A stretch of 64,000 nucleotides of DNA from Aphrocallistes beatrix (Eukaryota > Porifera > Hexactinellida > Sceptrulophora > Aphrocallistidae). The stretch is taken from assembly GCA_963281255.1 (NCBI GenBank), contig OY725499.1:4049148-4113147 (forward strand). Reading direction: 5' to 3'. Within the stretch, counting starts at the first letter, position 1. Each line of letters begins with the position of its first letter. This document shows, piece after piece, positions 25,564 to 62,534 of this stretch. Position numbers and translations under genes: made by a program. Under the pieces are notes generated by a model that did not search any database, had not been told where the DNA came from, and was given only the letters and a program-made list of their open reading frames with translations.

Positions 25564-26718
25564 ATGATCCTGACAATTATTGAAGACGTTCAAATTAGCA
25601 CACTGCTGCCATTTATTTCCCTTTTCATGACACTATCCATTATCTGGGACATATTCTTTCTTAAAATAATCAGGCAGTTAGTTTTGTTGTATCGTGAATG
25701 TATGGAAAAGGCAAATACTGATCCATTTGGGAACTTCTTGGAAGCAGCTCATCATCATAAGATCGAAATACACAAATACACATTTTTACTTGTAATTAAT
25801 ATCACTGAAGTGTGTTCGATCCAAATATATGCATTAGGAGCGGCTCTCACGTTTACACGACAGCATGATGACATTCTAAATCCGTCCAGATCTCTAATAC
25901 CCAACTGTACCACTGAGTTAGCTCATTTTAATAACTTTATGATAGACGCTATGACCTCAAATCCATCCATTTCCATACTTGTTTCCATTGGACAAGCTGG
26001 ACTGTTGTTCTCGATAGCTTTAGGGATTTGTCTTATGAAGTATCTTGATGTGAAGTACCATGACATATATGGAAAAACAGCTCGATACATCCGAACGTTT
26101 TTTCTGGTCACAGTAATGTTAGGAATTTTCTTGATCATCGCAGGATCTGTTCCCCAATTGATGATGATTCAAAAAGTTGTTGAGCCAATATTGCAACTAA
26201 TCTACTCAACTATTTGGGTCCAACATACACGTACCTTTTACAAGACACTGAAATGGAGGACAATTGAGTTTCGTGTGAGAGGTGAATCCAATCGAGTTGT
26301 TAAGAGATCTCTCATCAGTAGGTATCAGTTTGCAATAATAATGGGTTGTATGTTGATCAGTACTGCCTGTTTTATCTTCGCTGAATTTCTAACAGAATAC
26401 TTCCTACCGATCGCTGCCATTCTTTATTACGGTCCTTGCATCTTCAATTATCTCTATGCTACTCCAGACTACCAAACACTTCTCGTTACACAGCAACAGA
26501 TCGAGGCTCTACACACTACCAATACAGTTATCAGATATTTTTCAACATTTCTAATAATATTGGCATCTACTATAATTGGATCACAATACATACTGGCTAC
26601 CTGCTTATTCTTCGGACAAATAATAGTGAATAAACTGAAATATCGATTTGGATATATCCCCACCAGGTTTAGACCCAGCTTGACTGATTCCCTCCTCGCA
26701 GAAGCAGTTCCTCAATGA
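25564..26718 (+). CDS. Seven-TM family copy 1, intact, 384 aa, function unknown
   Basis: A single exon runs from ATG at 25564 to TGA at 26716-26718. Hydrophobic segments lie at about 13-33, 73-95, 135-158, 177-197, 254-276, 279-300 and 326-355. A weaker segment at about 205-219 makes the count seven or eight. Conserved landmarks are SIIWDIFF (25-32), NTDPFGN (51-57), a loop Cys in IPNC (115), KYHDIYGKTARYI (164-176), FYKTLKWRTIEFRVRG (225-240), YATPDYQ and the tail RFGYIPTRFRPSLTDSLLA. There is no signal peptide, no DRY motif and no sequon-rich N-terminus. I do not recognise the family. A chemoreceptor-like or other multi-pass role is inferred only from the topology and the tandem expansion. 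The C-terminus has two extra residues (AEAVPQ) shared with copy 5. Confidence 0.8.
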   Translation: MILTIIEDVQISTLLPFISLFMTLSIIWDIFFLKIIRQLVLLYRECMEKANTDPFGNFLEAAHHHKIEIHKYTFLLVINITEVCSIQIYALGAALTFTRQHDDILNPSRSLIPNCTTELAHFNNFMIDAMTSNPSISILVSIGQAGLLFSIALGICLMKYLDVKYHDIYGKTARYIRTFFLVTVMLGIFLIIAGSVPQLMMIQKVVEPILQLIYSTIWVQHTRTFYKTLKWRTIEFRVRGESNRVVKRSLISRYQFAIIMGCMLISTACFIFAEFLTEYFLPIAAILYYGPCIFNYLYATPDYQTLLVTQQQIEALHTTNTVIRYFSTFLIILASTIIGSQYILATCLFFGQIIVNKLKYRFGYIPTRFRPSLTDSLLAEAVPQ

Positions 26719-28292: not shown

Positions 28293-29599
28293 CGAGGGTC
28301 AGTCCAAAAGTTTTGTCGTATACCAGTTCTACTCAGCGTACAGTCTAATAATTTATAGACTATATTCTTGGTTATGTTTGATGACTCGACTGTGAATTTG
28401 AGCTCTATATTAGGCTTATTTCTTGACTTATGCTATTTTATCCATAAACGCCTATACAGATTTTATAATTACTCAATGGAGCTAGAAAGAAGGGATTTTA
28501 GAGCCATGATGTTCTATGACTTTATGCGCAAGTTATCAGTGGAGCAGAGTCACAATAATTTACTGGAAGCTTTCCAAGACCAAGCTCCATCTAAGCGCAC
28601 GGTGGAGCGTTGGTTTCTAGAATTCAAGAGGGATAGAACGTCATTACAAGATGAACCTAGGTCTGGGCGGCCTTCAACCGCCGTCACTCCAGAGAATATT
28701 GCCACTGTGGAGTCGTTGATCAAAGAGGATAGCCGCATTACCTATGAGCAGTTTGCTGAGACCCTAGACATCGGAAAAGCAGCCATTAACACTATCCTAC
28801 ATGATCATCTCGGTGTCAGTAAGCTTGCGGCCCGTTGGATCCCTCATTATCTCACAGAATTGAAGATGGAGGCAAGGGTAGAGTGGTGCAAGTTTATGCT
28901 CAAGAAATTCAACGGAGGAGGGTCCAAACGTGTTTATGATATCCTAACATGTGATGAGACATGGATTTATCAGTACGATCCGGAAACAAAGCGGCAATCT
29001 TCAATATGGGTATTTCCTGGAGAAGATCCCCCTGTAAAAGTTCGCCGGGCTCGAAGCGTCGGGAAGAAGATGGTGGCCGCATTTTTCTGTAAGACGGGCC
29101 CAGTAGCCATAGTTCCTCTCGAGGATCGTCGTACAGTCAATGCTGATTGGTACATCGACAATTGTCTCCCCAAAGCCTTCGAAGCTTGGAGTTCTCGTCG
29201 CCCTAAGACCGGCATCCGAGGCCTACTCCTTCATAACGATAATGCATCGGCACACACTGCAGCCAAAACACTGGACTTCCTGGCTGAATATTCGGTCCAG
29301 TTGGTATCGCATCCCCCCTACAGTCCAGATTTGGCCCCATGCGACTTTTTCCTATTCCCAACTATCAAAGAAAAGATCCGCGGAATCAGGTTTGGCAGTC
29401 CCGAAGAGGCCCGACTGGCGTTCGAAGAGGCCCTCTGGACCCTGCCAGAGGAAAAATAGTATAACTGCTTCGATAATTGGTTTCATCGTATGCAACTTTG
29501 CATAGAATGTAGTGGTAAATACTTTGAGAAGCTGTGAAAATTTGATTACTATTGGTTAATTATTTTTTGTGTACGACAAAACTTTTGGACTGACCCTCG
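28293..29599 (+). mobile_element. mariner element (1.3 kb), nested in the hAT element
   Basis: The inverted ends are CGAGGGTCAGTCCAAAAG at the left and CTTTTGGACTGACCCTCG at the right, extended by 'TTTTGTCG' inside. TA flanks both ends (28291-28292, 29600-29601). The length and ends fit the mariner group of Tc1/mariner. It carries one transposase reading frame. Confidence 0.92.
28476..29537 (+). pseudogene. mariner transposase, DD34D, with an in-frame stop near the C-terminus
   Basis: The ATG at 28476 matches the usual mariner N-terminus (helix-turn-helix domain 1-110, with 'RTVERWFLEFKRDRTSL' and 'DEPRSGRPS'). Catalytic residues are D160 (TCDETWIYQYDPETK), D255 (HNDNASAH) and D290 (SPDLAPCDFFLFP). 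The second and third are separated by 34 residues, the mariner signature. An in-frame TAG at 29457-29459 ends the protein at 327 residues. The same frame continues for 25 codons with the conserved mariner end (CFDNWFHRMQ...GKYFEKL) to TGA at 29535-29537. Family members have Trp at about this place, so TGG to TAG is the simplest change. The catalytic core is otherwise intact. It was probably inactivated recently. Confidence 0.88.
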
Positions 29600-30257: not shown

Positions 30258-31406
30258 ATGATACTGACAATTATTGAAGACATTCAGATTAGCACACTGA
30301 TGCCATTTCTTTTCTTTGTCATCATAATATCCATTATCTGGGACATCTTCTTTCTTAAAATGATCAGGCATTTAGTTTTGTTGCATCGTGAATGTATGGA
30401 GAAGGCAAATACTGATCCATTTGGGAATTTCTTGGAAGCAGCTCATCATCATAAGGTCGAAATTCACAAATACACATTTTTATTTGTAATGAATGTTATT
30501 GAAGTGTGTTCGATCCAAATATATACATTAGGAGCTGCTCTCGCGGTTACACGACACCCTAACGACATTCTAAATCCGTCAAGATTTCTAATCCCCAACT
30601 GTACCTCTGAGTTAGCTCATTTTAATAACATAATTATAGACGCTATGATCGAAATTCCATCCATTTCCATACTTATTTCCATTGGACAAGCTGGACTATT
30701 GTTCTCGATGGCTTTAGGGATTTGTCTTATGAAGTATCTTGATGTGAAGTACCATGACATATATGGAAAAACAGCTCGATACATTCGAACGTTTCTTCTG
30801 GTCTCAGTAATGTTAGGAATTTTCTTGATCATCGCTGGATCTGTTCCTCAATTGATGATGATTCAAAAAGTTGTTGAGCCAATATTGCAACTAATCTACT
30901 TCAGTATTTGGATCAAACACACACGTGCCTTTTACAAGACACTGAAATGGAGGACAATTGAGTTTCGTGTAAGAGGTGAATCCAATCGAGTTGTTAAGAG
31001 ATCTCTCATCAGTAGCTATCAGTTTGTAATCATAATGAGTTGTATGTTGATCGGTTTTGCCTGCTTAATCCTCGCTGAATTTCTGGGACAATACTTCACA
31101 CTGATCGCTACCATTCTCTATTACGGTCCTTGCATCTTCAATTATCTCTATGCTACTCCAGACTACCAAACACTTCTCGTTACACAGCAACAGATCGAGG
31201 CTCTCCACACTTCTGATACAGTTATCAGATATTTTTCGATATTTCTGATAATATCAGCATCTACTATAATTGGATTACAATACATACTGGCTACCTGCTT
31301 TTTCTTCGGACGAATCATCGTGAGGAAACTGAAATATCGATTTGGGTATATCCCCACCAGGTTTAGACCCAGCTTGACTGATTCTCTTCTCGCAGTTCCT
31401 CAATGA
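30258..31406 (+). CDS. Seven-TM family copy 2, intact, 382 aa
   Basis: A single exon, ATG 30258 to TGA. It is closest to copy 1, with which it also shares kilobases of flank, so the pair arose by one segmental duplication. The topology and landmarks are those of copy 1: SIIWDIFF, NTDPFGN, IPNCTSELAHF, KYHDIYGKTARYI, FYKTLKW and the C-terminal RFRPSLTDSLLAVPQ. In TM5 the two variable codons are Gly-Phe (copy 1: Ser-Thr), followed by Ala-Cys. The function is unknown. Confidence 0.8.
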   Translation: MILTIIEDIQISTLMPFLFFVIIISIIWDIFFLKMIRHLVLLHRECMEKANTDPFGNFLEAAHHHKVEIHKYTFLFVMNVIEVCSIQIYTLGAALAVTRHPNDILNPSRFLIPNCTSELAHFNNIIIDAMIEIPSISILISIGQAGLLFSMALGICLMKYLDVKYHDIYGKTARYIRTFLLVSVMLGIFLIIAGSVPQLMMIQKVVEPILQLIYFSIWIKHTRAFYKTLKWRTIEFRVRGESNRVVKRSLISSYQFVIIMSCMLIGFACLILAEFLGQYFTLIATILYYGPCIFNYLYATPDYQTLLVTQQQIEALHTSDTVIRYFSIFLIISASTIIGLQYILATCFFFGRIIVRKLKYRFGYIPTRFRPSLTDSLLAVPQ

Positions 31407-32725: not shown

Positions 32726-33876
32726 TCATTGAGGAACTGCGAGGAGAGAATCAGTCAAGCTGGGTCTAAACCTGGTGGGGATATACCCAAATCGATATTT
32801 CAGTTTTCTCACGATTATTTGCCCGAAGAATAAGCAGGTAGCCAGTATGTATTGTGATCCAATTATAGCAGATGCTAATATAATTAGAAATGTTGAAAAA
32901 TATCTGATAACTGTACTGGTAGTGTGTAGAGCCTCGATCTGTTGCTGTGTAACGAGAAGTGTTTGGTAGTCTGGAGTAGCATAGAGATAATTGAAGATGC
33001 AAGGACCGTAATAGAGAATGGTAGCGATCAGTGTGAAGTATTGTGTTAGGAATTCAGCGAGGATTAAGCAAGCAGCAACGATCAACATACAACTCATTAT
33101 GATTACAAACTGATAGCTACTGATGAGAGATCTCTTAACAACTCGATTGGATTCACCTCTTACACGAAATTCAATTGTCCTCCATTTCAGTGTCTTGTAA
33201 AAGGTACGTGTGTGTTTGACCCAAATACTGAAGTAGATTAGTTGCAATATTGGTTCAACAACTTTTTGAATAATCATCAATTTTGGAACAGATCCTGTGA
33301 TGATCAAGAAAATTCCTAACATTACTGAAACCAGAAGAAATATTCGGATGTATCGAGCTGTTTTTCCATATATGTCATGGTACTTCACATCAAGATACTT
33401 CATAAGACAAATCCCTAAAGCTATCGAGAACAACAGTCCAGCTTGTCCAATGGAAATAAGTATGGAAATGGATGGATTTTTGATCATTGCGTTTATCATT
33501 AAGTCATTAAAATGAACTAACTCTGTGGTACAATTGGGGATTACAAATCTTGACGGATTTAGAATGTCCTCAAGGTGTCGTGTATGTGCGAGAGCAACTC
33601 TCCCAATACATAGATTTGCATCCCACCAAATTCGGTGACATTCATTACAAGTAAAAATGTGTATTTGTGAATTTCGATTTTAAAATGTTGAGCTGCATCC
33701 AAGAAATTCCCAAATGGATCAGTATTTGCCTTTTCCATACATTCACGATACCGCAAAACTAAATACCTAATCTTTTTAACAAAGAAGATGTCCCAGATAA
33801 TGGATAATATAATGCCAAAGAAAAGAAATGGCATCAGTATGCAAATCTGAATGTCTTCAAAAATCCCAAGCACCAT
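32726..33876 (-). pseudogene. Seven-TM family copy 3, frameshifted by a 2-bp insertion
   Basis: The ATG at 33876 and the stop at 32726-32728 match the intact copies. Near 33598-33603 (plus strand) it reads 'aactctccca' where copy 4 has 'aactccca', an extra TC. The insertion shifts the frame after about 91 codons (IYVLG) and gives a 105-codon product. The rest of the gene stays open in the other frame to the normal C-terminus. Landmarks such as SIIWDIFF, NTDPFGN and KYHDIYGKTARYI are all kept. The single lesion means it is very recent, or possibly a base-call error. Confidence 0.85.
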
Positions 33877-36826: not shown

Positions 36827-37975
36827 TCATTGAGGAACTGCGAGGAGAGAATCAGTCAAGCTGGGTCTAAACCTGGTGGGGATATACCCAAATCGATATT
36901 TCAGTTTCCTCACAATTATTTGTCCAAAGAATAAGCAGGTAGCCAGTATGTATTGTGATCCAACTATAGCAGATGCTAATATAATTAGAAATGTTGAAAA
37001 ATATCTGATAACTGTATTGGTAGTGTGTAGAGCCTCAATCTGTTGCTGTGTAACGAGAAGTGTTTGGTAGTCTGGAGTAGCATAGAGATAATTGAAGATG
37101 CAAGGACCGTAATAGAGAATGGTAGCGATCAATGTGAAGTATTGTGCCAGAAATTCAGCGAGGATAAAGAAGGCAAAAATGATCAACACACAACCCATTA
37201 TGATTACAAACTGATAGCTACTGATGATAGATCTCTTAACAACTCGATTGGACTCACCTCTTACACGAAACTCAATTGTCCTCCATTTCAGTGTCTTGTA
37301 AAAGGTACGTGTGTGTTTGACCCAAATACTGAAGTAGATTAGGTGCAATATTGGCTCAACAACCTTTTCAATCATCATCAATTGGCGAACAGATCCTGCG
37401 ATGATCAAGAAAATTCCTAACATTACTGTCACCAGAAGAAACATCCGAATGTATCGAGCTGTTTTTCCATATATGTAATGGTACTTCACATCAAGATATT
37501 TCATAAGACAAATCCCTAAAGCCATCGAGAACAACAGTCCAGCTTGTCCAATGGCTAGAAGTAAGGAAACGGAAGGATTTGCGATTATTGCGTCTATCAT
37601 TATGTTATTGAAATGAGCTAACTCACTGGTACAGTTAGGGATTACAAATCTTGACGGATGTAGAATGTCCTCAAGGTGTCGTGTATGTGCGAGAGCAACT
37701 CCCAATACATAGATTTGCATCGCACCAAATTCGATGACATTAATTCCAAGTAAAAATGTGTATTTGTGAATTTCGATTTTAAAATGTTGAGCTGCTTCTG
37801 AGAAATTCCCAAATGGATCAGTATTTATCTTCTCCATACATTCACGATACAACAAAACTAAATGCTTGATCCTTTTAAGAAAGAAGATGTCCCAGATAAT
37901 GGATAATATAATGCCAAAGAAAAGAAATGGCATCAATATGCAAATCTGAACGTCTTCAAAAATACCGAGCACCAT
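36827..37975 (-). CDS. Seven-TM family copy 4, intact, 382 aa
   Basis: ATG at 37975, stop at 36827-36829, single exon on the minus strand. It has the same topology and landmarks as copy 1, including SIIWDIFFLK, INTDPFGNF, VIPNCTSELAHF and FYKTLKWRTIEF. It differs at KYHYIYGKTARYI (Tyr for Asp) and in TM5, where the two variable codons are Ile-Phe followed by Ala-Phe instead of Ala-Cys. The first in-frame ATG is used; upstream codons are non-ATG. Its promoter is unusual (see the AT repeats at 38039-38212). Function unknown. Confidence 0.8.
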   Translation of the reverse strand: MVLGIFEDVQICILMPFLFFGIILSIIWDIFFLKRIKHLVLLYRECMEKINTDPFGNFSEAAQHFKIEIHKYTFLLGINVIEFGAMQIYVLGVALAHTRHLEDILHPSRFVIPNCTSELAHFNNIMIDAIIANPSVSLLLAIGQAGLLFSMALGICLMKYLDVKYHYIYGKTARYIRMFLLVTVMLGIFLIIAGSVRQLMMIEKVVEPILHLIYFSIWVKHTRTFYKTLKWRTIEFRVRGESNRVVKRSIISSYQFVIIMGCVLIIFAFFILAEFLAQYFTLIATILYYGPCIFNYLYATPDYQTLLVTQQQIEALHTTNTVIRYFSTFLIILASAIVGSQYILATCLFFGQIIVRKLKYRFGYIPTRFRPSLTDSLLAVPQ

Positions 37976-41430: not shown

Positions 41431-42584
41431 ATGGTGCTCGGTATTATTGAATACGTTCAGATTTGCACACTGTTGCCATTTATTTTATTTGTCATTATAC
41501 TATCAATTATCTGGGACATATTCTTTGTTAAAATAATCAGGCATTTAGTTTTGTTGCATCGTGAGTATATGGAAAAGTCAAACACTGATCCATTTGGGAA
41601 TTTCTTGGAAGCAGCTCAACATTGTAAAGTCGAAATTCACAAATACACATTTTACTTTTAATGAATGTCACCGAATTTGGTGGAATACAAATCTATGCAT
41701 TGGGAGCTGCTCTTGCGCGTATACGACACCCTGTGGACATTCTAAATCCGTCCAGATTTCTAATCCCCAACTGTACCACAGAGTTTGCTCATTTTCATAA
41801 CTTAATGATAGACGCTATGACCTCGAATCCATCCGTTTCCATACTTGTTTCCATTGGACAAGCTGGACTGTTGTTCTCGATGGCTTTAGGGATTTGTCTT
41901 ATGAAGTATCTTGATGTGAAGTACCATGACATATATGGAAAAACTGCTCGATACATTCGAATGATTCTTCTGGTCACAGTAATGTTAGGAATTTTCTTGA
42001 TCATCACAGGATCTGTTCGCCAATTGATGATGATTCAAAAAGTTGTTGAGCCATTATTGCAACTAATCTACTTCAGTATTTGGATCAAACACACACGTAG
42101 CTTTTACAAGACATTGAAATGGAGGACAATTGAGTTTCGTGTGAGAGGTAGATCCAATCGAGTTGTTAAGAGATCTCTCATCAGTAGCTATCAGTTTATA
42201 ATCATAATGAGTTGTAATTTGATTTGTTTTGCCTGCTTAATCCTCTCTGAATTTCTAACACAATACTTCACACTGATCGCTACTATTCTCTATTACGGTC
42301 CTTGCATCTTCAATTATCTCTATGCTACTCCAGACTACCAAACACTTCTCGTTACACAGCAACAGATCGAGTCTCTCCACACTTCTGACACATTTATCAG
42401 ATATTTTTCGATATTTCTGATTACATCAACATCTGCTATAATTGGATTACAATACATACTGGCTACCTGCTTATTCTTCGGGCAAACAATAGTGAGGAAA
42501 CTGAAATATCGATTTGGGTATATCTCCACCAGGTTTAGACCCAGCTTGACTGATTCCCTCCTCGCAGAAGCAGTTCCTCAATGA
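41431..42584 (+). pseudogene. Seven-TM family copy 5, frameshifted by a 1-bp deletion
   Basis: The ATG at 41431 opens the normal start (MVLGIIEYVQICTLLPF). At 41650-41653 there are four T where other copies have five ('cacattttac' against 'cacatttttac'), which shifts the frame at KYTF and stops it at 41659-41661. Downstream, the family sequence continues open from 41661 to the TGA at 42582-42584, with the C-terminal AEAVPQ also seen in copy 1. TM5 has Cys-Phe-Ala-Cys. It is a single lesion in a homopolymer, so either a fresh pseudogene or a sequencing error. Confidence 0.85.
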
Positions 42585-44963: not shown

Positions 44964-45365
44964 ATGGTTTTCAACATTATCGAAGACGTTCAGATCTGTA
45001 CACTGATGCCAGCTATCATTTTTGGCATTATACTATCCATTATCTGGGACATCTCCTTTGTTAAAAAGATCAGGCATTTAGTTTTGTTGCATCGTGAATG
45101 TATGGTAAAGTCAAATACTGATCCATTTGGGAATTACTTGGAAGCAGCTCAACATTTTAAAGTTGAAATTCATAAATACAAATTTTTACTTTTAATGAAT
45201 ATCACCGAATTTGGTGCGATCCAAATTTATACATTGGGAGCTGCTCTCACGTTTACACTACACCCTGACGACGTTCTTAATCCGTCAAGATTTGTAATCC
45301 TCAACTGTAGCACTGAGTTAGCTCATTTCAATAACATAATGATGGAGGCTATGACAGGAATTTAA
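44964..45365 (+). pseudogene. Seven-TM family copy 6, 5' part (interrupted gene)
   Basis: From ATG 44964 the family frame runs for 130 codons (MVFNIIEDVQICTLMP... to NNIMMEAM) and then enters the hAT element, which adds three codons and a stop at 45363-45365. TM1 differs from the others (PAIIFGIIL) and a loop reads VILNC instead of VIPNC. The 3' part resumes at 49885. Host sequence on both sides is intact, so the insertion alone breaks the gene. Confidence 0.9.
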
Positions 45366-47077: not shown

Positions 47078-49210
47078 ATGGACCTTGCAGAAAATGTTAC
47101 TCCCGAATCTTCGGAGAAAACTGAAATGGCAGTCAAGTATCGTATTCCCAAAACTCGCCCAGAATGGTACCTGCGTTTTTTTCGAACGGTGGAAGGAACA
47201 GAAGAAAAGCGACACAAATGTGTCGAATGTGGGTTTGAAGGGATGGCTGTTCCCTATGCCCTCACCAACCTTCTTCGCCACTTTGCTGCTGCAAAATACC
47301 ATGATTGTGGTGAAAAATACAAAGCTTGGAAAACTCAAAACCAAGAAACCAAAAATAGAAAGACACTTCTAGTAGGCTCTCCTACCCGTAAAGGTAAAGT
47401 TCAGAATAAGATCTGTTCTTGCAGTACCAAAATTGATAATAAAGAAATTGACGAGAAGCTTGGGGATTTATTTGTATTTGCTGAACTACCTTTTACTTTT
47501 GTAAAACTTGGGGAATTCATCAAATTTTGTCAATCACTTAATCCTGCTTACACGATACCATCTATATACAAATTAAAGAATAATATTCTAAAGAAAAAAC
47601 GCTTTGAGAGTGATAGTTATCTGCGGAACGAGTTGGCACACAGTCCTTTTGTGACAATTACAATTGACGGATGGAGCACTCGTCGTTTGGTATCGATGAT
47701 GGGAATCATTGTCCACTACCATGGTGAAACATATGCTAAGGCTAGTGTTTTGTCTATTGCGTTATTTCGAGGTCCACATACCGGTGAAAGAATTGCTCGA
47801 TTTACCATCGATACGTGTAACGATTGGTGTATTGCCAATAAAATAGTCCGCGTAGGGACTGACAATGGTTCGAACATGGTTAAAGCTTTTTCTCAAATTG
47901 ATGAACTGTTAGATTTGGATGAGAGTGAACTTCCTGAAGACTATATCTATGAGGAAGATTATTTTGATGGATATAATGAGAGCCTCGATAACTTCGAATT
48001 ACAAGAAATTGATAAGTCTATTATGAAGGAAGCTGTAGAAAACTTGACAGAAGAATTAGAAGAAACGTCTCCACAGTCATTACTCGTAGGCTTACGAAAG
48101 GACGGTTTACTACCTTTATGGTTTCCCTGTGTATGCCACACTGCGCAACTAGCTGTTAAGGATTTTTTAAAGACCGACCTTGGCAATCGTGGAGAAATTA
48201 ACGCCATTGTGAAGAAAGCACAAGAATTTGTGAAATCTGCCAAAAGTTCCACAAAGTGTGCAGAGATCTTCATGGAAAAAGGTTTCAATTTAATGAGCAT
48301 GAACGCGACTCGATGGAACAGCATGTATGATATGCTTCGCTCAATTATCAGCGCAGACGAAAAAGAATTGATCGACTTGCTTCCACCATTAAAATCTGAA
48401 GTTCCTAAAAAATACGAAATAAACATATTTCGGGAGGTATGTGACGTCCTTCAACCAATAACATTATTTACGTCGGAGATGCAGGCAACCCATGGCACCA
48501 GCGGAATGACAATTCCTGCATTAGAGATGGTGATGAAGGAACTTCAGAATGGCGACCTAAATATGATGGACAATTCGTTGGCATCTATATTGAGCAATAT
48601 TCTTAAGAAAAGATTTCAGAATATTATGTCAGACAAATTTTATTGGTTAGCCAACTGTTTAGACCCTCGTTTTGCCACAGAAGCTTATGAAAATGAACTC
48701 TTCATGGAAATATTAAGACGGGCTTTGAAGATTGTCTCTGAAATAAATAGAAACAAAGGGGTGCGTAGTGAAATCCAAGAAAATGCAGATAAAGAGACTG
48801 GGATATGGAGTAAAGCTAAGAAGAGTTTATTCCCTACTAAGAGATACTCAGATTCTAACACACAGCTATATTGTAACGACGTTATTGATATGGAAATAAC
48901 ACTATTCAAAGCTGAAGCTCGTGCAATGCAGGGGATAATTTCGATAGATCCTATTAAATGGTGGATGCATAATTCCACGAAATTTCCTCTTATGTCACAG
49001 TTAGCAATGGTATACTTATTACCACCAGCCTCTACAGCAGATGTTGAGAGGTTATTCAGCGTAGCGGGACGAATTTGTCGTCCCCATCGGTCAAGGTTGA
49101 GCCCTGAATCTATTGAGCTCCTTGTAACTCTCAAACACAGAATGCTGTCGGATAATCGTAATTCTGAGAGAGCTGATAAACCAGCAAGTCTACATGGCAA
49201 TATAAGTTAG
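47078..49210 (+). CDS. hAT superfamily transposase with BED zinc finger, 710 aa
   Basis: An uninterrupted frame from ATG 47078 to TAG 49208-49210. The BED-type finger has C48, C51, H68 and H75/C77. Catalytic residues are D197 in TITIDGWSTRR and D262 in RVGTDNGSNM. A conserved CVCHTAQLAVKDF (351-363) and TRWNS (411-415) follow. The third acidic residue is E657 in ASTADVERLFSVAG, within the C-terminal hAT dimerisation domain (about 625-690). All hallmark residues are present and no stop or shift is seen, so it could encode an active cut-and-paste transposase. An acidic insert (275-335) lies between the second D and the CxxH block. It is the internal gene of the 45355-49884 element. Confidence 0.93.
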   Translation: MDLAENVTPESSEKTEMAVKYRIPKTRPEWYLRFFRTVEGTEEKRHKCVECGFEGMAVPYALTNLLRHFAAAKYHDCGEKYKAWKTQNQETKNRKTLLVGSPTRKGKVQNKICSCSTKIDNKEIDEKLGDLFVFAELPFTFVKLGEFIKFCQSLNPAYTIPSIYKLKNNILKKKRFESDSYLRNELAHSPFVTITIDGWSTRRLVSMMGIIVHYHGETYAKASVLSIALFRGPHTGERIARFTIDTCNDWCIANKIVRVGTDNGSNMVKAFSQIDELLDLDESELPEDYIYEEDYFDGYNESLDNFELQEIDKSIMKEAVENLTEELEETSPQSLLVGLRKDGLLPLWFPCVCHTAQLAVKDFLKTDLGNRGEINAIVKKAQEFVKSAKSSTKCAEIFMEKGFNLMSMNATRWNSMYDMLRSIISADEKELIDLLPPLKSEVPKKYEINIFREVCDVLQPITLFTSEMQATHGTSGMTIPALEMVMKELQNGDLNMMDNSLASILSNILKKRFQNIMSDKFYWLANCLDPRFATEAYENELFMEILRRALKIVSEINRNKGVRSEIQENADKETGIWSKAKKSLFPTKRYSDSNTQLYCNDVIDMEITLFKAEARAMQGIISIDPIKWWMHNSTKFPLMSQLAMVYLLPPASTADVERLFSVAGRICRPHRSRLSPESIELLVTLKHRMLSDNRNSERADKPASLHGNIS

Positions 49211-49884
49211 ATTAGCTTACTAGAATCGGGGTAGAAACGTAGAAACTTTTGACTACTTGGGTGTTAATAACCCCTACTACTATTGTTTTTATACTATTAG
49301 GTTAACATGTTAGTCGTTTATAATAGTTTACTGTGTTGAGTTAGTTTAGTTTATTCCGATTGTACCAACAGAAAAAGAGTATTCTGTTTATCACGAGAAT
49401 TAGCATTAAGTTAATTAAACTGCCTAACAATAGTCTTAAATAATATTTAAACAAGCCTTCGTGGGATAGATAGTTTTCATAATGTTTGTGTTTCGTTTTG
49501 TATGAGATAAGAACGATTATGACGCAACTTGGGAAAATTACATCTCACTGGTAGTGATATAATTTTTGCAATCAAAACGTTACAACTTTGTTTATATAAA
49601 AATCAAATCAAAAACCTTATGATCTAAATTTACCAGTGCGGCGTCTTACAGACTTAATACTTTTTAGTTGAAATATAAAATCTAAATCACTTAATGATTT
49701 TGATTTATAAATCAAAATCATTAATTGATTTAGATTTAGATTGAATTATTTAAAAAATCAAAACTCATTCTGATTTTGATCTATAAATCAAAATCATATC
49801 TTTTGATTTTTGAATGTTGAATACAATATAAATCATTTAATGATTTTGATTTATAAATCAAAATCTGAAATATTTTAATCACTG

Positions 49885-50650
49885 GGCTATGATCGCAAAT
49901 CCATTGGTTTCCATACTTGTTTCCATTGGACAAGCTGGACTGTTGTTCTCGATGGCTTTAGGGATTTGTCTTATGAAGTATCTTGATGTGAAGTACCATG
50001 ACATATATGGAAAAACAGCTCGATACATTCGAATGTTTCTTCTTGTCACAGTAATGTTAGGAATTTTCTTGATCATCGCAGGATCTGTTCCACAATTGAT
50101 GATTATTCAAAATTTTGTTGAGCCAATATTGCAACTAATCTACTTCAGTATTTGGGTCAAACACACACGTACCTTTTACAAGACACTGAAATGGAGGACA
50201 ATTGAGTTTCGTGTAAGAGGTGAATCCAATCAAGTTGTTAGGAGATCTCTGATCAGTAGGTATCAGTTTGTAATCATAATGAGTTGTATGTTGATCGGTA
50301 TTGCCTGCATTATCCTCTCTGAATTCCTAACACAATACTTCACACTGATCGCTACCATTCTCTATTACGGTCCTTGCATCTTCAATTATCTCTATGCTAC
50401 TCCAGACTACCAAACACTTCTCGTTACACAGCAACAGATCGAGGCTCTACACACTACCAATACAGTTATCGGATATTTTGCGATATTTCTAATAATATTA
50501 GCATCTGCTATAATTGGATTGCAATACTTGCTGGGTACCTGCTTATTCTTCGGACAAATAATCGTGAGGAAACTGAAATATCGATTTGGGTATATCCCCA
50601 CCAGGTTTAGACCCAACTTGACTGATTCTCTCCTCGCAGTTCCTTATTGA
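49885..50650 (+). pseudogene. Seven-TM family copy 6, 3' part
   Basis: It resumes with the duplicated GGCTATGA and continues (MIANPLVSILVSIGQAGLLFS...) to TGA at 50648-50650, covering TM3 to the C-terminus without any lesion. TM5 has Gly-Ile-Ala-Cys and the C-terminus ends AVPY instead of AVPQ. Without a start or promoter it cannot be made as part of the family protein, unless a transcript from the hAT element reads into it. Confidence 0.9.
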
Positions 50651-52857: not shown

Positions 52858-54006
52858 ATGATACTGACAATTGTTGAATACGTTCGAATTGGTACACTGA
52901 TGCCATTTCTTTTCTTTGTCATTATTCTATCCATTATCTGGGACGTTTTCTTTCTTAAAAAGATCAGGCATTTAGTTTTGTTGTATCGTGAATGTATGAA
53001 AAAGGCAAATACTGATCTATTCGGGAATTACTTGGAAGCAGCTCATCATCATAAAATTGATATTCACAAATACACATTTTTACTTTTAGTGAATATCGCC
53101 GAATTTGGTGGGATGCAAATCTATACATTGGGAACTGCTCTCGCGATTATACAACAGCCTGATAACATTCTAAATTTTTCAAGATTTGTAATTCCCAACT
53201 GTATCACAGAGCTAGCTAATTTTCATAGCATGATGATAGATTCTATGATCGCGAATCCATCCGTTTCCATACTTATTTCCATTGGACATGCTGGACTGTT
53301 GTTCTCGATGGCTTTAGGGATTTGTCTTATGAAGTATCTTGATGTGAAGTATCATGACATATATGGAAAAACAGCTCGATACATTCGAACGTTTCTTCTG
53401 GTCACAGTAATGTTAGGAATTTTTTTGATCATCGCAGGATCTGTTCCCCAATTGATGATGATTCGAAAAGTTGTTCAGCCAATAATTCAACTAATCTACT
53501 TCAGTATTTGGATTAAACACACACGTACCTTTTACAAGACACTGAAATGGAGGACAATTGAACTTCGTGTAAGAGGTAGATCCAATCGAGTTGTTAAGAG
53601 ATCTCTCATCAGTAGCTATCAGTTTGTAATCATAATGAGTTGTATGTTGATCGGTGCTGCTTGCTTAATCCTCGCTGAATTTCTAACAGAATACTTCACA
53701 CTGATCGCTACCATTCTCTATTACGGTCCTTGCATCTTCAATTATCTCTATGCTACTCCAGACTACCAAACACTTCTCGTTACACAGCAACAGATCGAGT
53801 CTCTACACACTACCAGTACAGTTATCGGATCTTTTTCTACATTTCTAATTCTATCAGCATCTGCTATAATTGGATTGCAATACATACTGGGTACCTGCTT
53901 ATTCTTCGGACAAATAATCGTGGTGAAGCTGGAATATCGATTTGGGTATATCCCCACCAGGTTTCGACCCAGCTTGACTAATCCTCTCCTCGCAGTTCCT
54001 CAATGA
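52858..54006 (+). CDS. Seven-TM family copy 7, intact, 382 aa
   Basis: A single exon from ATG 52858 to the TGA at 54004-54006. It shares the full set of landmarks but has several private changes: NTDLFGNY for NTDPFGNF, GHAGLLFS for GQAGLLFS, 'IELRVRGRSN' and an N-terminal 'TIVEYVRIGTLMP'. The TM5 variable pair is Gly-Ala. The C-terminus reads PSLTNPLLAVPQ. Its 5' flank is shared with copy 8 (from about 52480 and 61010). Confidence 0.8.
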   Translation: MILTIVEYVRIGTLMPFLFFVIILSIIWDVFFLKKIRHLVLLYRECMKKANTDLFGNYLEAAHHHKIDIHKYTFLLLVNIAEFGGMQIYTLGTALAIIQQPDNILNFSRFVIPNCITELANFHSMMIDSMIANPSVSILISIGHAGLLFSMALGICLMKYLDVKYHDIYGKTARYIRTFLLVTVMLGIFLIIAGSVPQLMMIRKVVQPIIQLIYFSIWIKHTRTFYKTLKWRTIELRVRGRSNRVVKRSLISSYQFVIIMSCMLIGAACLILAEFLTEYFTLIATILYYGPCIFNYLYATPDYQTLLVTQQQIESLHTTSTVIGSFSTFLILSASAIIGLQYILGTCLFFGQIIVVKLEYRFGYIPTRFRPSLTNPLLAVPQ

Positions 54007-61385: not shown

Positions 61386-62534
61386 ATGATACTGACAATT
61401 GTTGAAGACATTCAAATTAGCACACTGATGCCATTTCTTTTCTTCGTCATTATTCTATCCATTATCTGGGACATCTTCTTTGTTAAAAGGATTAGGCATT
61501 TAGATTTGTTTTATCGTGAATGTATGAAAAAGGCAAATACTGATCCATTTGGGAATTTCTTGGAAGCAGCTCAACATTTTAAAATCGAAATTCACAAATA
61601 CATATTTTTACTTGTAATGAATGTCACCGAATTTGGTGCGATGCAAATATATGGATTGGGAGCTGCTCTCGCGTTTACACGACACCCTGAAGACATTCTA
61701 AATTCGTCAAGATTTCTAATCCCCAACTGTACCACTGAGTTAGTTCATTTTAATAACTTAATTATAGAGGCTATGATCTCAAATCCATCCGTTTCCATAC
61801 TTATTTCCATTGGACAAGCTGGACTGTTGTTCTCGATGGCTTTAGGGATTTGTCTTATGAAGTATCTTGATGTGAGGTACCATGACATATATGGAAAAAC
61901 AGCTCGATTCATTCGAACGTTTCTTCTGGTCACAGTAATGTTAGGAATTTTCTTGATCATCGCAGGATCTGTTCTCCAATTGATGATGATTCAAAATTTT
62001 GTTGAACCAATATTGCAACTAATCTACTTCAGTATTTGGTTCAAACACACACGTAGCTTATACAAGACACTGAAATGGAGGACAATTGAGTTTCGTGTAA
62101 GAAGTAGATCCAATCGAGTGGTTAAGAGATCTCTCATCAGTAGGTATCAGTTCGTAATCATAATGAGTTGTATGTTGATCAGTACTGCCTGCATAATCTT
62201 CTCTGAATTTATAACACAATACTTCCTACTGATCGCTACCATTCTCTATTACGGTCCTTGCATCTTCAACTATCTCTATGCTACTCCAGACTACCAAACA
62301 CTTCTCGTTACACAGCAACAGATCGAGGCTCTACACACTACCAGTTTAGTTATCGGATCTTTTTCGACATTTCTGATAATATTAGCATCTGCTATAATTG
62401 GATTACAATACATACTGGGTACCTGCTTATTCTTCGGACAAATAATCGTGAGGAGACTGAAATATCGATTTGGGTATATCCCCACCAGGTTTAGACCCTG
62501 CTTGACTAATCCTCTCCTCGCAGTTCCTCATTGA
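61386..62534 (+). CDS. Seven-TM family copy 8, intact, 382 aa
   Basis: A single exon from ATG 61386 to TGA 62532-62534. Private changes include FYRECMKKANTD, 'KYHD' to 'RYHD', ARFIRTF, VEPILQLIYFSIWFKHTRSLYK and a C-terminus PCLTNPLLAVPH. The TM5 variable pair is Ser-Thr, as in copy 1, although the copies are far apart. The 5' flank matches copy 7 and the 3' flank matches copy 6, so the block boundaries differ upstream and downstream. Function unknown. Confidence 0.8.
   Translation: MILTIVEDIQISTLMPFLFFVIILSIIWDIFFVKRIRHLDLFYRECMKKANTDPFGNFLEAAQHFKIEIHKYIFLLVMNVTEFGAMQIYGLGAALAFTRHPEDILNSSRFLIPNCTTELVHFNNLIIEAMISNPSVSILISIGQAGLLFSMALGICLMKYLDVRYHDIYGKTARFIRTFLLVTVMLGIFLIIAGSVLQLMMIQNFVEPILQLIYFSIWFKHTRSLYKTLKWRTIEFRVRSRSNRVVKRSLISRYQFVIIMSCMLISTACIIFSEFITQYFLLIATILYYGPCIFNYLYATPDYQTLLVTQQQIEALHTTSLVIGSFSTFLIILASAIIGLQYILGTCLFFGQIIVRRLKYRFGYIPTRFRPCLTNPLLAVPH

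Follow-up and report, generated by a model that had tools for sequence, protein, structure and literature searches.

A large, orphan and intronless family of chemoreceptor-like seven-transmembrane (7TM) proteins, expanded in the lineage of the glass sponge Aphrocallistes beatrix, seems to evolve under diversifying selection at a few residues combined with ectopic gene conversion among its copies, a reading that we hold with moderate confidence. It is based on nine copies found in the window (the whole stretch of 64,000 nucleotides analysed here) and on their relatives in the rest of the genome.

Family copies in the window

Five of the nine copies are intact, three are disrupted but cover the codons discussed below, and one is an N-terminal fragment, broken or fragmentary copies thus making up 4 of the 9. 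They are located as follows:

25564-26718, plus strand: copy 1, an intact single-exon ORF of 384 aa, used as numbering reference
30258-31406, plus strand: intact copy, Gly-Phe at 31053-31058
32726-33876, minus strand: broken copy, Val-Ala, frameshift near 33590
36827-37975, minus strand: intact copy, Ile-Phe
41431-42584, plus strand: broken copy, Cys-Phe, frameshift near 41652
44964-45359, plus strand: N-terminal fragment, matching residues 1-132 only
49862-50650, plus strand: N-terminally truncated copy, Gly-Ile, matching from residue 118 onward
52858-54006, plus strand: intact copy, Gly-Ala at 53653-53658
61386-62534, plus strand: intact copy, Ser-Thr at 62181-62186

Transposase ORFs are also present in this region. 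A Mariner/Mos1-type ORF at 28374-29459 (plus strand) is situated between two family copies (HTH_48, E = 3.7e-12; DDE matches partial), and its first ~30 residues may be foreign to it because the HTH domain is matched only from residue 39 onward. A hAT-type ORF of 710 aa at 47078-49210 (plus strand) lies within the family cluster (Dimer_Tnp_hAT, E = 9.6e-16).

A variable codon pair in a conserved setting

A preliminary description of this DNA had singled out two adjacent codons, here 266-267 (bases 26359-26364, AGT ACT, Ser-Thr) of the ORF at 25564-26718 (plus strand), as hypervariable positions set in nearly invariant surroundings. The dipeptides given there (ST, GF, VA, IF, CF, GI, GA and ST) agree exactly with those of the eight window copies that cover the site, and the flanks are indeed nearly fixed, with Leu-Ile before the pair in 8/8 copies and Ala-Cys after it in 7/8. 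Nearly all differences had been noted to change the amino acid; at 266 (AGT/GGT/GTT/ATT/TGT) and 267 (ACT/TTT/GCT/ATT) every one does, and none among the eight copies is synonymous. When 383 neighbouring residue pairs are compared, this pair ranks first in distinct dipeptides (seven in eight copies), three of the seven being supplied by the disrupted copies at 32726-33876 (VA), 41431-42584 (CF) and 49862-50650 (GI). The near-identical blocks reported earlier were likewise recovered (no more than one copy differing per column), directly before the pair at 26286-26321 (36 nt), directly after it at 26406-26505 (100 nt), and at a greater distance at 26017-26090 (74 nt) and 26632-26685 (54 nt).

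The variability of the pair and its conserved flanking blocks therefore stand, but the pair is not isolated, because residues 269, 270, 273 and 281 vary as well. Among the 22 distinct intact genomic copies, residue 266 is mostly two-state (G11, S10, I1; entropy rank 39th) and residue 267 is highly variable (F10, T7, Y2, I2, A1; entropy rank 6th).

Tests for selection at individual codons

A FUBAR-type analysis (MG94 with HKY and a grid of synonymous and nonsynonymous rates) of the 22 distinct intact close copies, subfamily A, gave a global dN/dS of 0.81. Over 382 codons, P(dN>dS) lies above 0.9 at 22 sites, above 0.95 at 13 and above 0.99 at four (21, 267, 111 and 281). In the flagged pair it is 0.999 at codon 267 and 0.968 at codon 266; codon 269 is variable, yet reaches just 0.18. 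Two further codons score highly nearby:

26371-26373, plus strand: codon 270, P(dN>dS) = 0.966, on the same predicted helix face
26404-26406, plus strand: codon 281, P(dN>dS) = 0.993, at the outer end and on the same face if the helix continues

That four selected sites fall within a stretch of 16 residues does not amount to significant clustering (p = 0.09). Elsewhere in the protein, codons 21 (25624-25626, predicted TM1) and 111 (25894-25896, extracellular loop 1) have P(dN>dS) of 1.000 and 0.999, as strong as that of 267.

Forty simulations without positive selection served as nulls, eight for each of five designs (one with a single tree, and two each with segment trees and with column-permuted trees, the rates in either pair being truncated in one and neutral in the other). 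The number of sites ranged from 0 to 22 at the 0.9 level, from 0 to 8 at 0.95 and from 0 to 2 at 0.99, so that the observed excess is clear at 0.95 (13 against a null maximum of 8) and at 0.99 (4 against 2) but not at 0.9 (22 in both). The highest null codon in 40 x 382 has 0.9991, as against 0.9992 for the observed codon 267. The signal at 267 is thus beyond chance, and a value like that of 266 is reachable by no-selection simulations with recombination.

Five partition schemes gave 0.963-0.997 for codon 267, 0.953-0.996 for 281, 0.917-0.980 for 270 and 0.898-0.986 for 266; with partitioned trees 8-12 sites keep values above 0.95 and 1-4 keep values above 0.99. A multinucleotide model raised the fit by 27 log units (267, 0.998; 281, 0.994; 270, 0.967; 266, 0.967). 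A site-wise dN/dS analysis of the kind proposed in the preliminary description gives, with recombination handled, dN>dS at 267 and, less strongly, probably also at 270 and 281. Diversifying selection had been suggested for the pair as a whole; it is supported at 267, which keeps its signal under local trees and the multinucleotide model and tops the 40 nulls, but less so at 266 taken alone.

The subfamily tests took in 60 of 89 sequences (A, 22; B, 13; C, 8; D, 11; F, 6). Analysed singly, B, C, D and F each show 3-8 sites above 0.9, with codon 281 (0.915) being one of them for B and codon 266 (0.916) for F; codon 267 exceeds 0.9 in subfamily A only and reaches at most 0.79 elsewhere (C). Site-specific diversifying selection is accordingly found for 267 and a few other codons in subfamily A, and more weakly in the other subfamilies. 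In pooled nonsynonymous rates of B, C, D and F over 355 positions, codons 277 (99th percentile), 267 (96th), 266 (94th) and 270 (86th) rank high, so that outer TM6 forms a fast-changing spot common to the subfamilies; codon 281 is only at the 56th percentile. In this pool the mean rank of the 13 sites from subfamily A is the 73rd percentile (p = 0.001). Such shared fast change is compatible with selection at outer TM6, but fast change alone is no proof of it. In subfamily B (contig C1, 12.05-12.11 Mb), the strongest sites are 147 (0.995) and 151 (0.998), one turn apart in predicted TM3, and hence the most diversified helix may differ by subfamily.

Probable gene conversion among the copies

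The preliminary description ascribed the uniformity of the remaining sequence to gene conversion, and this fits with a mosaic topology in three of the four subfamilies tested (A, C and D) and with synonymous valleys that move between subfamilies. When four contiguous quarters were given their own topologies and compared with random quarters (25 replicates), the gain was 140.6 log units in A against 78.6 for random quarters (sd 14.9, maximum 103.5 of 25), 57.5 in D against 21.1 (maximum 32.1) and 33.4 in C against 14.1 (maximum 19.9). Mosaicism in subfamily B is not significant (57.8 against a mean of 43.4 and a maximum of 67.2). The valleys in subfamily A are:

25996-26091, plus strand: low-synonymous valley, codons 145-176 (pS = 0.04), interpreted as the result of homogenising conversion
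26428-26499, plus strand: second low-pS block, codons 289-312 (pS = 0.05)

In subfamily A, codons 145-176 hold 8 synonymous steps over 24 sites (p = 0.001), with no such dip in B; in B, synonymous steps are scarce at codons 177-240 (p < 0.001 in both blocks), with no such dip in A, all these p-values being uncorrected single tests among 48. A fixed constraint on the DNA would explain such shifting valleys less well than conversion does. At codons 289-312 the dip has p = 0.04 in A and p = 0.07 in C and is not significant in B and D; constraint may contribute to this block, because pS is lowish in C too.

An initial PHI test (p = 0.002) was discounted as inflated partly by correlated changes within codons. 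With one third-position site per codon, PHI was marginal at the three neighbourhood sizes tried (p = 0.05, 0.05 and 0.18); on 26 synonymous-only sites it was not significant (p = 0.14-0.48). Sawyer fragments gave p = 0.003 in a test that assumes even rates. Since PHI is inflated and the Sawyer test makes this assumption, the case for conversion relies on the topology gain and the synonymous valleys.

Predicted topology and position of the selected residues

The topology was predicted from mean hydropathy and charge in 70 sequences (67 distant and 3 close) and from the sequons of all 89, the boundaries being set by hand. The predicted helices are TM1 13-32, TM2 73-96, TM3 138-160, TM4 178-196, TM5 207-222, TM6 256-273 and TM7 325-352. 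By this family profile the flagged codons belong to the middle to outer part of predicted TM6 and not to TM5, to which they had been assigned. The relevant features of copy 1 are:

25852-25974, plus strand: predicted extracellular loop 1, residues 97-137, between TM2 and TM3, with selected sites 97, 99 and 111
26329-26382, plus strand: predicted TM6, residues 256-273, running from the cytoplasmic to the outer side (boundaries set by hand)
26437-26439, plus strand: Cys292 of the GPC motif, present in 89/89 sequences

Predicted extracellular loop 1 has a sequon at N114 in 78/89 sequences and Cys115 in 88/89, and segments rich in K/R are found at 31-50, 171-180, 221-250 and 351-370. The N-terminus is predicted outside and the C-terminus inside because the basic segments fall on the inner side and the N114 sequon in loop 1. 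Charge, hydropathy and sequons thus point to a seven-TM, N-out/C-in topology. The N-out argument is not clean, since sequons at 57 (39/89), 79 (58/89) and 372 (21/89) fall in segments modelled as cytoplasm or membrane, and the helix count may be 7 or 9, because the long segment 274-324 is partly conserved and has weak hydrophobicity. Cys115 and Cys292 could form an extracellular disulphide. Glu274, on the selected side of the helix, is present in 22/22 close copies and 65/89 sequences overall.

AlphaFold2 models are too low in confidence for mapping sites (mean pLDDT 44.6 with the eight window copies and 51.4 with a single copy), so that a ligand pocket or cavity is put forward here as a suggestion. 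The selected face of helix 6 may line a cavity, a ligand may be the selective agent, and the proteins may have a signalling role. Plotted on a helical wheel, the four sites with P(dN>dS) above 0.95 between residues 256 and 282 lie within an arc of 100 degrees, which is matched by 8% of random four-site sets. The rate-weighted direction is 334 degrees against 191 for the hydrophobic moment; by permutation, no moment test reaches significance. The predicted outer half holds 10 of the 13 selected sites (p = 0.04, boundaries set by hand); sites 35, 65 and 356 fall in predicted cytoplasmic parts.

Family size and genomic spread

At least 136 distinct places in the genome (100.5 Mb, 28 contigs) encode the intronless protein of ~385 aa. 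The number is a hand count over four protein searches in which the top 104-110 out of 416-447 candidates were scored each time (107 places, then 24, 5 and 1 new, with one on a short duplicate contig removed), and it is a lower bound on places rather than a count of working genes, because some are fragments or carry stops. Clusters occur on contig C1 at 10.9-11.1 Mb and 12.05-12.12 Mb and on C4, C9, C13 and C16; a further one, at C1 10.88-10.97 Mb, is mostly outside the sequence set analysed. The expansion, with its tandem arrays and broken copies, is of the birth-and-death kind seen in chemoreceptor-like families. Before counting, L027 was set aside for its two stops and L033 for its identity with L032, as were the subfamily-A copies with a frameshift or truncation.

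The 34-kb contig C5 (L033, L041 and L045) repeats part of C4:4688000-4698000 (L032, L040 and L046) in reverse, including a gene copy that shows no difference, and is probably an assembly duplicate or an alternative haplotype. COX1 on the mitochondrial contig (C28, L009) has TGA at tryptophan positions, AGA seemingly standing for serine and ATA seemingly for isoleucine, as judged by the residues expected in COX1. The combination of TGA = Trp, AGA = Ser and ATA = Ile in mitochondria points to glass sponges, and a spider mite origin was set aside on the evidence of this gene.

Relation to known protein families

No significant match was obtained in Pfam for two copies (E ≤ 1, full list) or for 54 members (E ≤ 10, 25 of the 31 matched families listed). 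The weak Pfam matches were taken as chance, each of the 25 listed families occurring in at most 4/54 members with a best E of 0.0022. NCBIfam searched with five members likewise gave no significant match, its single hit (E = 0.078) being taken as chance, and in PDB phmmer returned 0 matches at E ≤ 10 and a profile search a single one at E = 1.1, also taken as chance. No relatives were found in viral and prokaryote contigs. The 54-sequence alignment, which combines 4 of 22 close copies with 50 of 61 distant ones, has invariant residues at W28, E82, C156, L161, G194, L229, W231, R232, E235, R239, F256, G290-P291-C292, Y342, R361 and P371.

The rhodopsin-type domain 7tm_1 (PF00001) is absent among the 25 of 31 Pfam families listed for the 54 members (E ≤ 10) and for the two copies (E ≤ 1). 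Class A GPCRs are marked by DRY at the end of TM3 and NPxxY in TM7; neither was found in the family consensus, which reads GICLMKYLH at the predicted end of TM3 and LxTxxFFGxILxxKLKYRFG at predicted TM7. No match to 7tm_7 was found in the 54 members (25 of 31 families listed) or in the genome, in a genome search that matched no control genome either and so leaves some room for a very remote relation. By the sequence tests done, the family is outside both the rhodopsin-type GPCRs and the 7tm_7 superfamily. An intron-blind search of the genome shows a sole place above the 7tm_1 cut-off, C10:4157164-4158087 (E = 1.5e-27), which is not a locus of this family.

Proposed mechanism and alternative explanations

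Under the reading that we favour, tandem and dispersed duplication would make the copies, a good part of which decay, and ectopic gene conversion would even out stretches among them. Diversifying selection would keep altering a few residues, mostly in extracellular loop 1 and outer helix 6 (267, 270, 281 and probably 266). These residues may contact a changing partner outside the cell, either a small ligand or another surface molecule, and the basic intracellular loop 3, with its invariant W231, R232, E235 and R239, may retain a common function in signalling or assembly. The proteins would then work like chemoreceptors.

An explanation without positive selection, which we judge unlikely, is that relaxed change at lipid-facing hydrophobic positions and homoplasy from conversion inflate the nonsynonymous rate. 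The alignment is mosaic, codon 267 encodes F, T, Y, I or A, the helix-face tests are weak, and the mosaic and permuted-tree nulls do reach 8 sites above 0.95, 2 above 0.99 and, at the 0.9 level, the same number as the data (22) in one replicate. However, the observed 13 and 4 sites at the two upper thresholds are above all 40 nulls, codon 267 (0.9992) is at least level with the null maximum (0.9991) and keeps its signal with local trees, the selected side points ~143 degrees away from the hydrophobic moment, and pN (0.123) is larger than pS (0.114) over codons 257-285.

If selection is real, its agent could still be something other than a small ligand. The copies might be surface receptors for self/non-self or immune recognition, contact with pathogens or symbionts included, with the helix-6 changes tuning packing or dimer contacts. 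The selected sites 97, 99 and 111 in extracellular loop 1 would suit this, as would the single-exon tandem AIG1 family reported in the glass sponge Aphrocallistes and suggested to have an immune bearing (PMC10282587). We nevertheless find it quite improbable, as no adhesion or immune domain is matched, the protein consists nearly entirely of membrane helices and moderately long loops, and a residue in the middle of a membrane helix would be an unusual place for recognition between proteins. The lack of a significant match to a known family, and a helix number of either 7 or 9 depending on segment 274-324, would also accommodate an amplified transporter, channel or structural membrane protein in which change at 266-267 alters substrate selectivity or is neutral. 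That appears very improbable given the predicted N-out/C-in arrangement with an odd number of helices and the resemblance to chemoreceptor families in family size, tandem clusters, broken copies and selection on the outer side.

Comparison with other receptor families

Arthropod gustatory and odorant receptors are multi-TM proteins similar in size to the sponge family, and in insects both have a cytoplasmic N-terminus (N-in). The sponge family differs from them in having no 7tm_7 match and a predicted N-out orientation, based on charges and the N114 sequon, with sequons 57 and 79 discordant. What is alike is the large, lineage-specific chemoreceptor repertoire, for which expanded 7tm_7-superfamily sets are described in the German cockroach and the spider mite (PMC6175461).

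The nearest functional parallel found is with vertebrate TAAR7 and TAAR8, a multigene 7TM chemosensory family with positive selection, in which the selected sites are reported to gather around the predicted ligand-binding pocket (PMC4786312). In contrast to the TAARs, which are GPCRs modelled on the beta1-adrenergic receptor, the sponge family has no 7tm_1 match and is known from sequence alone. Among sponges, 126 of 220 GPCRs of Amphimedon queenslandica are sponge-specific receptors of the Rhodopsin family, similarly a large sponge-specific radiation without eumetazoan orthologues; those receptors were found by Pfam search (PMC4302439), whereas the family here has no significant Pfam match.

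Aphrocallistes vastus is reported to have a tandem expansion of single-exon AIG1-domain genes (PMC10282587). This too is a lineage-specific, clustered, single-exon amplification in a glass sponge, but of an unrelated protein that has an AIG1 domain and is not multi-TM. The main text of that paper makes no mention of GPCR or G-protein. G proteins are present in glass sponges: for Oopsacas, eight G-alpha genes are reported and GPCRs are said to be surveyed in an article (PMC10280926) the main text of which does not mention 7TM, chemoreceptors, rhodopsin, orphan or intronless genes. No such family was found in the literature on GPCRs of glass sponges or Aphrocallistes and on diversifying selection in Hexactinellida, as covered by titles, abstract openings and open-licence texts.

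Implications for glass sponges

Sponges lack neurons, and their chemical senses are, to our knowledge, poorly understood. The family, with its 136 or more places in a genome where intron-blind search shows one place above the 7tm_1 cut-off, is a candidate for a main sensing repertoire of the lineage, and one that domain-based annotation would miss. A bolder and rather unlikely possibility is that this orphan 7TM family fills in glass sponges the role of the rhodopsin-type and gustatory receptors, with conversion and selection together acting as a generator of pockets. If this is true, conversion would spread a common scaffold, on which a few codons of helix 6 and loop 1 are diversified and reassorted, and the outcome would be a large combinatorial sensing repertoire for a neuron-less animal with syncytial tissue. 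The few selected codons offer direct targets for tests of specificity, and the family would show in nature how gene conversion and diversifying selection work together on one set of short genes.
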